Of a DNA stretch of 64,000 bases, positions 27,113 to 40,253 are shown one piece after another; the stretch's first letter is position 1, and every line of letters begins with the position of its first letter. Location: positions 2,790,001-2,854,000 of the forward strand of contig NZ_JAYEZN010000001.1 of the NCBI RefSeq assembly GCF_037031225.1, in the 5' to 3' direction. Position numbers and translations under genes: made by a program. The notes beneath the pieces are model-generated. The model ran no database searches, was not told where the DNA came from, and worked only from the letters and a program-made list of their open reading frames with translations. Origin of the DNA: Halorientalis sp. LT38. GTDB lineage: Archaea > Halobacteriota > Halobacteria > Halobacteriales > Haloarculaceae.

Positions 27113-27293
27113 TCGCCGTTGATTTCGCCCTTCAGCATCCCACGTTTTTCTCCTCGGGTTCGCCTGTGGCGAACCACTCGTCGAAAAACGTGGGCGAAAA
27201 ACGGAACGCTCGGCTTTGCCTCGCGTTCCGCGAACCGCGCTCGCTCCGCTCGCGCGGACGTTAGTCGCCGTTGATTTCGCCCTTCAGCGTCCC
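27113..27293. repeat. 3'-end duplication element A at mptA
   Basis: A 29-base direct repeat (27113-27141 and 27265-27293, one mismatch) consists of the last codons of mptA. The proximal copy belongs to the gene (ends GAC TAA on the minus strand); the distal copy would end GAG GAC TGA. Between them, 27142-27264 is a hairpin-rich cassette: an inverted repeat cacgtttttc (27141-27150) / gaaaaacgtg (27183-27192) encloses an inner hairpin ggttcgcc-tgt-ggcgaacc. Two more hairpins (ggaacgc/gcgttcc and a cgcg-ended stem) follow. The 19-base core gaaaaacgtgggcgaaaaa (27183-27201) is identical in element B. On the mptA sense strand the core reads as two T5 runs. Confidence 0.85.
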
Positions 27294-28190
27294 GTACTCC
27301 GCGACGCGCTCGGCGTGGGCGTTGTGCTGGTGGATCGACTCGTCGTTGGACTGCTTCATCGTCACGATCGCCTCGTCGGGGAGATCGGGGAACTCCTCGA
27401 CCACGCCCTCGGCCATCGCGCGGACGCAGTCCTCGACGAACTTGGCGTCCTTGTGGGACTCGTAGGTCATGTGGTCCTCGTCCGGGCGCTTCGCGAGGTT
27501 GTAGATCCGGGCGCTCATCGCGTCGCGGGCCACCTCGATGATGTCGTTCAGGTCGGCCTCGGGTGCGCCCTCGCTCTCGACAGTCAGCGTGGCGTGGCCG
27601 CGCTGGGAGTGGCCCGGCTGGGGGACTTCTTCGAGGAACTGGTCGACGACCTCGTCGTCGACGCCGAGACCGGCGAGGGTCTCCCGGGCGCGGGACGTGC
27701 TCATCCCCTGCGAGCAGGGACAGACGGTCATGCCGGTGACGCGGGCGCCGATCTCCTCGGTGGTGCCGTCTTCGGTCGCGGTCGCGGACGCGATGATGTC
27801 CGCGGTGGACTGGGTGGGGCGGTTGGACTCGGGGGTCTGCTCGCGGGTGACGTACTCGGCCTCCATCCGGACCTCGGCCTTGGTCGTGTAGTCGTGTTTG
27901 TCGATCAGCCGCTCGGCGACCTCGCCGCAGACGTCCTCGACGCGGTAGACCTCGTCGGCGACGGCGGCCTCCAGCGTCTCGTCGATGACCTCCATGTTGC
28001 GGGACATGTCGGCTCCCTTCCGCCAGGACGGGAGGTCGACGAACACCTCGAACTCGGCCATCAGCACGATCGGCCGGTCGTCCTCGCGGCCGAGCTTGAC
28101 GAGCTTCTCCACGCCGGTGACGCCGACGCGGTTCAGTCCGACGGTCACGTCGGGACTCGTCGCCTGAACGTCCGGCAGTTGCTGACTCAT
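27261..28190 (-). CDS. mptA: GTP cyclohydrolase MptA (type IB/FolE2 family)
   Basis: 309 residues. It converts GTP to a dihydroneopterin-type product, the entry to pterins; in Haloferax volcanii this enzyme is needed for folate and for the preQ0 precursor of archaeosine. Family features are [15 protein letters not shown] at the N terminus, [32 protein letters not shown] with the metal-binding cysteine, and [13 protein letters not shown]. The last codons are duplicated downstream in element A, and removing the element would leave an intact, slightly different C terminus. Divergent from the NO reductase gene. Confidence 0.94.
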
Positions 28191-33277: not shown

Positions 33278-33871
33278 TCACTCTTCTTCGACGGTGTGGA
33301 CGTCCTCGTCGAGTTCGCGGAAGACGGCAGCGAACGCCTCGTCGTCGAAGCGCGCGACGGTCTCCTCGAGGTGGTTGCGGATCCGGGCTCGCTGGCGTTT
33401 GAGTTCCCTGAACTCGTCGCTGCCTTCCAGTTCCGTGGTGCCCTTGTTCGCCACGAGCGTCGCGTACTTCGAGGAGAGCGCGTAGTAGCGCTGGAGCGTC
33501 TCCTCGTACTCGGCGCAGACGAGCAACCGGTCGATGGTGTCGAACAGGTCCGACTGCGAGACGGGTTTGATGACGTAGTCGTCGAAGGGCATTTCGATGA
33601 TGTCGAAGCCCGGATCGACCGCGGTCACCATCGCGACCCGGCAGTCGTACCCCTGTTCGCGGAGCTCCTCGAGCACGTCGTCGCCGGAGACGCCGGGCAT
33701 CCGGCGGTCGAGCAGCACCACGTCGACGTCCGGACCGAGCGCTTCCAGTGCCTCCGCACCGCTGTACGCGGTTTCGACGTGGTACTCGTCGCGCAACTGC
33801 GCTGCGTACGCGTCGGCCACGTCGGGTTCGTCGTCCACCACCAGCACGGTGGGGAGGTCACCGGGACTCAT
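33278..33871 (-). CDS. HalX-type response regulator (second)
   Basis: 197 residues from ATG (MSPGDLPTVLVVDDE). Receiver with D55 in LLDRRMPGVSG and the lysine in YVIKPVS, then the HalX domain (EETLQRYYALSSKYATLVANKG). An ATG eight codons earlier is possible, but a TATA-like cttatcc (minus strand, 33901-33907) sits about 33 bases before 33871, which favours this leaderless start. Paralogue of the adjacent regulator. Confidence 0.85.
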   Translation of the reverse strand: MSPGDLPTVLVVDDEPDVADAYAAQLRDEYHVETAYSGAEALEALGPDVDVVLLDRRMPGVSGDDVLEELREQGYDCRVAMVTAVDPGFDIIEMPFDDYVIKPVSQSDLFDTIDRLLVCAEYEETLQRYYALSSKYATLVANKGTTELEGSDEFRELKRQRARIRNHLEETVARFDDEAFAAVFRELDEDVHTVEEE

Positions 33872-34193
33872 CCAATCGCTAGCAAATGGCCCCAACAGAA
33901 GGATAAGCGTTCCGGGCGTTTCAGGGGCAGGAATTATTCGTTCAACGACACGTTACGGTCGCGGACGCCGGTTCGGTCCTCGCCACGACGACCTCACTCC
34001 CCCACGATCTCGTCGTACTGCGCGCCGGTCTGTTTCAGCGTCTCCGTCCCACCTTTTTCATCGTCGGGACGCCTCCGGCGACCCTCCTCGAAAAACGTGG
34101 GCGAAAAAGCGGCCGTTCGCGCCGGAAGACTCACTACGTTCGCCTTCCGAGCCCCCGTTCACTCCGTTCACGGGGACTCCGCTCACGGCCGTG
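33872..34193. other. 322-base gene-free gap holding element B
   Basis: Apart from the promoter of the second HalX gene at its left end, this gap contains the distal copy of the siroheme-decarboxylase 3' end and the hairpin cassette described as element B. I see no open frame with support and no RNA gene. Confidence 0.6.
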
Positions 34194-34248
34194 CTATTCC
34201 CCGACGATCTCGTCGTACTGCGCGCCGGTCTGTTTCAGCGTCTCCGTC
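33998..34248. repeat. 3'-end duplication element B at the siroheme decarboxylase gene
   Basis: A 51-base direct repeat (33998-34048 and 34198-34248, one mismatch, offset exactly 200) is the 3' end of the gene. Both copies encode the tail TETLKQTGAQYDEIVGE; the distal copy differs only by a synonymous change (GTC to GTG), then GAG TGA instead of GAA TAG. The 149-base interior has an inverted repeat cacctttttc (34050-34059) / gaaaaacgtg (34090-34099), the identical 19-base core of element A (34090-34108), and hairpins ggaag/cttcc and ccccgt/acgggg. Same order and orientation relative to the host gene as element A. Confidence 0.85.
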
Positions 34249-35288
34249 GAGTAAAGCCGTTCGTGGTCGACCGGGAGGTAGTCGGCGGCGAGTTCGTCGA
34301 TCTTCTCGTCGACTGCGGGGGTTTCGCGGCCGTGGATCATCGTGAAGAGGTTGTAGGGCCAGTCCTGGTCCGGGCGGCGCGGTCGGTGATAGCAGAGCGT
34401 GACGTAGGGTAGCGAACCGACGGCCTCGCCCCAGGTATCGAGTTCGTCGTCGGGCACGTCCCAGACGACCATGCAGTTGCTGTCGAAGCCCGTCGTGAGG
34501 TGGTTGACGACGCACCCGATGCGCTTGATACAGCCGTTCTCCCGCAGTCGATCGACCGCCTCGATCACCGCATCCACGTCCGCGTCGACGGCCGCGGCGA
34601 CGTCCCGATACGGCGTCTCGGTCAGCGGGAAGCCGTCCTGGATCTCGAGCAGGAGTCGGCGGTCCAGCGCCGAGAGGTGGGCGGCGGCGTCCTCGCTGAT
34701 CCGGGTCGCCGAGGCGTCCGTCTCGGCGATCGACTCCCGTGCTCGCGGTTCCACCGCTCGCTCGTCCGGAGACGCGCCTTCCTGGCGCGTCTCCCGGGCG
34801 AATCGATCACCGTTCACCACGGGGAACTCCAGGTCGATGTAGTAGTCGGTCAGCATCGGCAGGACGAGCACGTCGAGTCCTGTCCTGTCCTCGACGTCCG
34901 CGATGATCGCGTCGCGCTTGTCCTTCGACCCCGCGGTCACGACGAACCACATGTTCCACTCGTGGTCGCGCCGGTAGTTGTGGTTGACCTGCCGGTGGTC
35001 GTTGACGATCTCGGCGACCGCCTCGAAGCGGTCCTCGGGCGCGGCGACTGCCGCGAGCGTCGAGGAGCCGATCACCGGCGGGTTGAGGACCGGCCCGAAC
35101 CGGCGGAAGACGCCCGCCTCGCGGAGGCGGCGGACCCGGGCCAGCGCGTCGGCGGCGTCGATCCCAAGGTCAGCGCCCACGGCCTCGAAGGGACGTTCCG
35201 TCACGGGGAACCCGCTCTGGTACCCGTCGACGAGCGCCGCGTCAACGTCGTCGACGTCCTCGCGCCAGTCGCCCGACCGGAGACTCAT
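34194..35288 (-). CDS. ahbAB: Siroheme decarboxylase, fused AhbA-AhbB (Lrp/AsnC-like)
   Basis: 364 residues formed by two tandem Lrp/AsnC-like units. Unit 1 (about 15-165) has GYQSGFPVTERPFEAVGADLGID, FRRFGPVLNP and NHNYRRDHEWNMWF; unit 2 (about 205-360) has IQDGFPLTETPYRDVAAAVDAD, KRIGCVVNH and LCYHRPRRPDQDWPYNLFTMIHG. This is the AhbA/AhbB (NirD-L related) pattern; the pair converts siroheme to 12,18-didecarboxysiroheme in the alternative haem pathway. A Ser/Arg/Glu-rich linker of about 40 residues joins the units. The ATG is MSLRSGDWRED; an upstream frame is non-family-like. Proximity to norZ (a haem enzyme) is suggestive only. Confidence 0.88.
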   Translation of the reverse strand: MSLRSGDWREDVDDVDAALVDGYQSGFPVTERPFEAVGADLGIDAADALARVRRLREAGVFRRFGPVLNPPVIGSSTLAAVAAPEDRFEAVAEIVNDHRQVNHNYRRDHEWNMWFVVTAGSKDKRDAIIADVEDRTGLDVLVLPMLTDYYIDLEFPVVNGDRFARETRQEGASPDERAVEPRARESIAETDASATRISEDAAAHLSALDRRLLLEIQDGFPLTETPYRDVAAAVDADVDAVIEAVDRLRENGCIKRIGCVVNHLTTGFDSNCMVVWDVPDDELDTWGEAVGSLPYVTLCYHRPRRPDQDWPYNLFTMIHGRETPAVDEKIDELAADYLPVDHERLYSTETLKQTGAQYDEIVGE

Positions 35289-35373
35289 TGCCTCCTGTTG
35301 GGAATTCCGAAGTGTAACGGTGTCGCTTCGCCGGCGCGAAACCGATATGTCGCGGGCGCTGCTCGTCCCGGCA

Positions 35374-35826
35374 ATGGTCAGGTACTTCGAGGACATCGCG
35401 GTCGGTGACACGCGCGAACACGGGAGCTACGAGGTCACAGAGGAAGAGATCCTCGAGTTCGCCGAACAGTACGATCCCCAGCCGTTCCACACGGACCCCG
35501 AGGCCGCCGAGGACACGATGTTCGGCGCTCTCACCGCAAGCGGCTGGCACACCGCCTCGATGTGCATGCGCCTGCTGGTCGAGTGTATGGAAAACGCCGA
35601 GTGGGCCTTCCAGGGGGCCCGCGGCGTGGACAACCTCCGCTGGATAACGCCCGTCAGACCCGGCGACGAACTCTCGATCGAGTACGAAGTCGTCGAGAAA
35701 CGCGCGGGCGACCGCCCCGACATCGGCGAGGTCGACAGCAAACTGACCGGCTTCAGGCAGGACGGCGATCCCGTCATCACGTGGGTCGGCCTGGGACTGC
35801 TCGAGAAGCGGTCGGCCGGCGAGTAG
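35374..35826 (+). CDS. MaoC-family dehydratase
   Basis: 150 residues. Single hot-dog domain: YFEDIAVGDTREHGSYEVTEEEILEFAEQYDPQPFHTDPEAA carries the (R)-hydratase catalytic Asp/His motif (DPQPFHTD). The family hydrates trans-2-enoyl-CoA to (R)-3-hydroxyacyl-CoA, feeding polyhydroxyalkanoate or fatty-acid pathways; the substrate is not determined here. ATG chosen because MVRYFED matches the family N terminus. Divergent from ahbAB. Confidence 0.86.
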   Translation: MVRYFEDIAVGDTREHGSYEVTEEEILEFAEQYDPQPFHTDPEAAEDTMFGALTASGWHTASMCMRLLVECMENAEWAFQGARGVDNLRWITPVRPGDELSIEYEVVEKRAGDRPDIGEVDSKLTGFRQDGDPVITWVGLGLLEKRSAGE

Positions 35827-39957: not shown

Positions 39958-40041
39958 GCGAGGGTAGCCAAGCCTGGAAACGGCGGCGGACTTAAGATCC
40001 GCTCCCGTAGGGGTCCAGGGGTTCAAATCCCCTCCCTCGCA
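39958..40041 (+). tRNA. tRNA-Leu (TAA anticodon)
   Basis: 84 bases with a long variable arm, as expected for a type II tRNA. Acceptor GCGAGGG pairs with CCCTCGC, discriminator A. Anticodon arm GCGGA-CTTAAGA-TCCGC gives TAA. T arm AGGGGTTCAAATCCCCT. CCA not encoded, no intron. A short hairpin (cctctc accgat ggagagg) lies just upstream. Its 3' end is duplicated downstream. Confidence 0.97.
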
Positions 40042-40163
40042 TGAGTGTGCGCCCCCAACTCGGGGGCGCACCGAATCGTTGAGATATTTGAACCCGGGGA
40101 GTCGCACGCTCGACCAACGGGAGAGACCGTCTCCACTCGGTTCAAATCCCCTCCCTCGCATGA
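40020..40163. repeat. Duplicated tRNA-Leu 3' end flanking a hairpin (att-like)
   Basis: A perfect 25-base direct repeat, 40020-40044 and 40139-40163, comprises the T-loop and acceptor 3' half of tRNA-Leu plus tga. The downstream copy has no matching 5' half, so it is not a second tRNA. The 94-base spacer begins with a perfect 10-bp hairpin (gtgcgccccc / gggggcgcac, 40047-40071, five-base loop). tRNA 3' ends are standard integration sites in haloarchaea; no integrase is present. Confidence 0.8.
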
Positions 40164-40253
40164 CGGCGCGGCGCACTCCACTTCTCGACCCTGTCACTGT
40201 CGCGGGATTCCGTTAGTTTCACGCCGGCGTATCGAGTGGTCGGAGGCGAGGCC

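Follow-up and report, generated by a model that had tools for sequence, protein, structure and literature searches.

The 3' end of ahbAB occurs twice in Halorientalis sp. LT38, once on the gene and once beyond it, which raises the question of where the detached gene tail came from and what the DNA between the two copies is. A sequence-only reading of the window, by which we mean the whole stretch of 64,000 nucleotides that was analysed, had proposed that an integrating piece of DNA brought the second tail in from a different genome, and that the differences between the tails record former coding selection on both. Our analysis points to a different answer: the 149-bp spacer is probably a short, non-coding, hairpin-rich, terminator-like element of the Haloarculaceae, here called E, that was copied into the 3' boundary of ahbAB and left a second tail behind.

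The duplicated end of ahbAB

The repeat (direct repeat D3) pairs positions 33998-34048 with 34198-34248, which are identical at 50 of 51 bases with an offset of 200, as the sequence-only reading had described; the sole mismatch is at 34003 versus 34203. This is the longest close direct repeat within the 64-kb window, and it scores 48.5, compared to a median of 10.5 and a maximum of 24.5 for the best local match of equal geometry at control positions. The gene had been named as ahbAB, and both NCBIfam equivalog models agree (AhbA, 2.5e-47; AhbB, 8.9e-72), identifying a fusion of siroheme decarboxylase alpha and beta at 34194-35411 on the minus strand, with its true start probably near 35339 and its TAG stop codon at 34194-34196. 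It was matched in 38 of 58 relatives. Because ahbAB is read on the minus strand, the gene-attached tail is the copy at 34198-34248 and the detached, fossil tail is the copy at 33998-34048, which begins directly behind GGTGG (offset 0). Both copies encode the same tail, again as claimed.

Homology between the copies stops at the last codon, where the gene-attached copy reads GGGGA followed by ATAG and the detached copy reads GGGGA followed by GTGA. The GAA/GAG and stop-codon differences, which the sequence-only reading had listed together with GTC/GTG as drift of the repeat, mark a junction with a new TAG stop beside E rather than drift within the repeat. Since they lie outside the 51-bp match, one third-position change (GTC/GTG) remains inside it, and a single change of this kind cannot show the purely synonymous drift that had been read from it. 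The detached tail leads into a probable original TGA stop (33994-33996, minus strand) and then into old intergenic DNA, an order analogous to that at spt5 and mptA. After this intergenic DNA come the promoter and coding sequence of the next gene, a HalX response regulator (33278-33895, minus strand; Pfam Response_reg and HalX) that is conserved in congeners.

Elsewhere in the window, the 3' part of a tRNA-Leu gene (39958-40041), together with 10 bp, has a second copy 119 bp further downstream (40020-40051 versus 40139-40170, 91%), and E motifs are absent from the spacer of this repeat. It is possibly an integrase attachment remnant or another kind of tail duplication.

Anatomy and distribution of element E

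The 149 bp between the two ahbAB tails (34049-34197, minus strand) are not unique DNA; a repeat search of the window genome and the fold of the spacer identify them as a member of an interspersed, hairpin-rich repeat family, E. This copy comprises, in order, a branched hairpin domain recognised by its fold (34110-34191, minus strand), which is the variable module of the family; the conserved motif CTTTTTCGCCCACGTTTTTCG with two T-stretches and a C after each (34089-34109, minus strand), recognised by pattern matches and sequence; a terminal hairpin; and the conserved right end AAAAAGGTGG (34049-34058, minus strand), which reads CCACCTTTTT on the opposite strand and has one match in the window and none in 100 shuffles. 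The whole copy folds at -78.5 kcal/mol, with z = -5.7 against dinucleotide shuffles. Copies across the family typically consist of an AGCATCC-like left end (found in 85 of 160 copies), at least one GC hairpin, CTTTTTCGCCCACGTTTTT, a terminal hairpin and AAAAAGGTGG.

The spacer, used as a query against its own genome, found 39 places including itself, nearly all of the others partial. CCACGTTTTT has 28 copies in this genome versus 2 for a reversed control, and exact 10-mer anchors there include chance matches (26 versus 9 in the control). A longer core of E, CGCCCACGTTTTT, occurs in 91 of 146 Haloarculaceae genomes, with as many as 29 copies per genome and control counts close to zero, and its carriers include Halorientalis and Haloarcula. 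Outside the Haloarculaceae the core is rare, being limited in an even draw across the class to scattered genomes with 1-6 copies. Rfam 15 gave no match at an E-value of 1 or below for positions 33900-34400, and a search of a plasmid collection with the repeat region returned short partial matches only.

The palindromes of E are kept and the stem sequences are not, with 95 distinct longest stems among 113 cores. Hairpin cores had mean scores of 17.4 for 23 orthologous pairs, 16.2 within genomes and 14.6 between genomes; at orthologous boundaries in different species the flush edge of E is the same, and the hairpin cores are as unlike as those of unrelated copies. Low-complexity repeats of the GCGGTAGCGGTGGC type fill the spacer between the upstream gene and E at several loci (L280, L134, L311 and others). 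We found no description of the family in the open literature, which is not proof that none exists; E is apparently an undescribed and sizeable family that is terminator-like and has unusual junctions.

Tail duplication across the family

Our sample of AAAAAGGTGG sites numbered 160 distinct ones and was drawn from four Halorientalis genomes along with other members of the Haloarculaceae. At 50 of these 160 right ends, a second copy of nearby upstream sequence begins 0-8 bp past GGTGG (array units are counted more than once in these duplicate counts, and genes were taken from a simple codon-usage caller). Among controls, 10 of 732 positions reach the score of the duplicates and none exceeds 24.5. 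The duplicate beyond E is nearly always the tail of the gene immediately upstream, and that gene is co-oriented with E, reading toward it, in 44 of the 50 cases; the remaining 6 include gene starts and oppositely read tRNAs. Duplicates range in length from 20 bp to more than 100 bp, the longest values including E itself in tandem arrays, and for 17 of 38 cases the stop codon is no more than 5 bp from the point where homology ends.

These data bear on the idea that the 51-bp copies are attL and attR of a tyrosine-integrase island at the end of ahbAB whose element was deleted internally. Such a remnant would consist of direct repeats at a gene 3' end with one copy attached to the gene, as seen here, and tRNA ends are used by E too. 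However, the same spacer family occurs at dozens of unrelated genes between unrelated repeats, and the length of these repeats varies widely, from 20 bp up. The 149-bp spacer holds no integrase or coding remnant, and seven congeners have no full-length integrase element between matching ahbAB tails. An attachment-site remnant was rejected because the repeats differ from gene to gene, and we consider it extremely improbable.

Some E sites are tandem arrays of the form (E-tail)n in which the last unit is a tail. Arrays of this kind, together with the recurrence of E in several species at one and the same boundary with its right end flush in the same way (23 orthologous pairs), could be taken to mean that E is a terminator of long standing, passed on vertically, and that the tail copies arose later when replication slipped back into the gene. 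If tail plus E had simply been duplicated in tandem, E would, however, follow the last tail, and this explanation was rejected because the arrays end in a tail; in addition, ahbAB sites that lack E also lack the extra tail. Slippage behind an inherited terminator is thus unlikely, and we favor insertion of E at the gene end.

Arrays of E and gene tail at L206, L208, L209, L207 and L211 (genomes G065, G071 and G076) consist of 2-4 near-identical units with a period of ~157-193 bp. At L209 (G071), L190, L177 and L181, E duplicates an apparent gene start and not a gene tail, and the original promoter would sit beyond E.

Empty sites and the origin of the detached tail

At the ahbAB locus, E and a second tail are present in the window genome (G000) and in G003, G001 and G006, and the site is empty in G007, G002, G005 and G004 (4 of 8 congeners). 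Downstream of spt5 in Haloarcula, E and a second tail occur in 6 of 30 loci read, and the site is empty in close relatives whose Spt5 protein is the same. The flank into which the spt5 tail beyond E runs in G062 is the one that G012 and G084 have at their empty sites.

A second E of the window, located by own-genome repeat search and motif (27142-27264, minus strand), lies after mptA, which encodes GTP cyclohydrolase MptA (27261-28148, minus strand; NCBIfam TIGR00294, E 1.8e-118). It separates two copies of a 29-bp tail, both on the minus strand: a gene-attached copy at 27265-27293 that ends NGD-stop and a fossil copy at 27113-27141 that reads through to NGED-stop. The tail beyond E is NGED-stop in the window genome and NGEE-stop in G003, like that of several congeners, and the gene-attached tail is NGD-stop or NGN-stop in these two genomes. 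Because the pre-insertion tail is found beyond E at mptA and spt5, it is the detached copy that represents the old end of the gene; the gene-attached copy at mptA and Haloarcula spt5 received a new end beside E. The proposal of an insertion in the sequence-only reading is therefore upheld by empty sites in relatives and an old tail beyond the insert, and its foreign source is not. Extra spt5 tail copies of ~18 bp with a small GC hairpin between them occur downstream of spt5 at four Haloarcula loci (L331, L335, L345 and L341), and these are without E motifs.

With respect to source, the detached ahbAB tail has its best match in its own gene (50/51), and the best of 116 other loci matches it at 48/51 and is equally near the gene-attached copy (49/51). 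Comparison with the ahbAB tails of relatives, which had been suggested as a way to reveal a donor lineage, revealed none. The sequence-only reading had set against itself the case of two copies equally close to one relative with no empty site known; what we found was a best relative at 48/51 and 49/51, and empty sites exist. In every E-bearing congener (G003, G001 and G006), the second tail matches the gene of its own species. The detached copies of G003 and G001 have a derived GAAACGGAC in common, and elsewhere each tracks its own gene. At spt5, G067 and G074 have one common insertion; the detached copy of G074 carries the allele of the gene, and that of G067 keeps a different allele, which G062 has too. 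This sister-species evidence indicates that tail copies have been homogenised, so likeness between copies cannot date the insertion.

Homogenisation also bears on the pattern of differences between copies, which over all sites fall at third codon positions in 71 of 103 cases (first 21, second 11) and at spt5 in G062 in 5 of 5. This excess is of the kind that the sequence-only reading had predicted; it is what would be expected if both copies had once been under coding selection, and would agree with a detached tail carried in from another genome on integrating DNA, the two tails being xenologues. The excess itself holds across the family, but gene conversion, together with divergent alleles taking the place of the intact gene, can explain it, and a donor on the inserted DNA is then not required. 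Conversion between copies is observed here and can yield the same signature. Origin of the detached ahbAB tail in a donor lineage was rejected because its own gene is nearest, and we regard xenology as improbable; the data favor E entering a local gene end.

Right ends of E and a proposed mechanism

Unexpectedly, the 110 E right ends that lack a duplicate sit at preferred places rather than anywhere in the spacer. They adjoin the stop codon of a convergent gene (within ~6 bp) in 42 cases and a tRNA 3' end in 6; another 38 coincide with the upstream boundary of a promoter, taken as a point 28-50 bp ahead of a start codon that has an AT-rich box, a rule with a chance rate of 14% at random positions, and the other 24, some of them probably chance anchors, fall in none of these classes. 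The left side of E is not flush. Gradual erosion of the DNA between E and functional edges was rejected as the cause, since few intermediates occur and the left side shows no erosion. Flush ends of non-duplicated copies are not expected from random joining, nor from template switching alone, and selection for a terminator right at the gene end possibly contributes to them.

Comparison of genomes establishes the insertion of E, the duplication of its target, the later homogenisation of the copies and the turnover of hairpins. For ahbAB, we propose that the left end of E was joined at the last codon or stop and that the right end, AAAAAGGTGG, was joined 51 bp further back in the gene, which would place a second tail beyond E. 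The joining step may have been template switching aided by microhomology, or else some form of transposition, with E copied in from another locus; a template switch returning upstream would generate a duplicated tail, and one returning downstream would replace the spacer. In G005, a truncated E enters the mptA tail at a common 8-mer, CGCCCACG (L202), one clear junction that would fit template switching at microhomology. This truncated copy at L202 is followed by another E, which is complete and sits flush against the next promoter.

A fixed right end, a heterogeneous left end and duplications of variable length would also be expected from a retroelement using SINE-like target-primed reverse transcription. 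However, a search for the reverse transcriptase domain RVT_1 (PF00078) that was positive in three control genomes gave matches in 0 of 8 Haloarculaceae genomes. We dropped target-primed reverse transcription on this result; it is largely refuted unless the enzyme falls outside RVT_1 or a helper was lost, and is very improbable. Matches to Y1_Tnp (PF01797) numbered 0 in the window genome and 0 in the element-rich G031 and were present in others, and RAYT/IS605 mobilisation in the window genome was rejected on the lack of Y1 transposase matches.

E carries a T-stretch and a hairpin on both strands directly after genes, which are the sequence features and the position of a bidirectional transcription terminator, and we predict this function for it. 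A T-stretch followed by C is an intergenic termination signal that has been mapped and reporter-tested in Haloferax (PMC7237163). Two properties may account for the persistence of E, namely termination at its T-stretches in both directions and a duplicated tail that keeps the gene whole. More tentatively, and less likely than not, E could be a self-spreading two-way archaeal terminator whose right end is placed with near base precision against stop codons, tRNA 3' ends or the upstream edges of promoters, or is joined back into the gene upstream. The process would be replicative and would use neither reverse transcriptase nor Y1 transposase, and the hairpins would be rewritten so fast that only palindromicity is kept.

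Significance and comparison with known systems

A single repeated tail thus leads to a family-wide process that replaces archaeal intergenic spacer DNA. Insertion of E duplicates and re-edits gene ends, as at mptA, which is shorter by one residue and ends in a new stop codon, and it also shifts terminators from place to place. E also provides a defined element for haloarchaeal strain comparisons and is a likely source of partial-gene repeats in annotation.

REP stems are conserved. E resembles REPs and BIMEs in being short, non-coding, palindromic, present many times per genome and intergenic, often near stop codons, but it is longer, has conserved T-stretch motifs and stems that are not conserved, and makes long duplications of the neighbouring gene tail. 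REPs and BIMEs depend on RAYT, whereas the window genome has no Y1 transposase. REPs are described as 20-40 bp (PMC3733652), and E, with 95 distinct stems in 113 cores, does not have a conserved stem of 20-40 bp.

The PATEs and SMRs of Haloquadratum are, like E, transposase-free, small, mobile haloarchaeal repeats with palindromes, and different repeats can share one position (PMC3119063). No target duplication is described for them (PMC3119063), in contrast to the long duplications at 50 of 160 E right ends. PATEs are IS200-IS605 derivatives whose near-terminal palindromes are related to a resident IS605-type transposon, and SMRs have terminal inverted repeats; the motif set of E differs from that of PATEs and SMRs. 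E therefore departs from REPs, PATEs and SMRs in a tested defining feature of each. MITEs are likewise short, non-coding and interspersed, and target duplication accompanies part of the E copies; however, no simple terminal inverted repeat tied to a transposon was seen in E, and its duplications are long and variable rather than short and fixed.

E shares with the T-stretch terminators of Haloferax (PMC7237163) a T-stretch followed by C, hairpins and a position right after genes, but ordinary haloarchaeal terminators neither make up an interspersed repeat family whose end is fixed nor duplicate coding sequence. Integron attC-like sites are defined by conserved boxes and a variable palindrome at gene 3' ends; E has conserved ends and variable stems at gene ends, and a relation to such sites would be speculative. 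The deletion-coupled insertions of Haloquadratum, in which unrelated sequence replaces old DNA at precisely the same position (PMC3119063), include large foreign segments that differ between strains, whereas E is one repeat family at intergenic spacers. For these insertions, which were reported with no mechanism described, E offers a concrete starting point.
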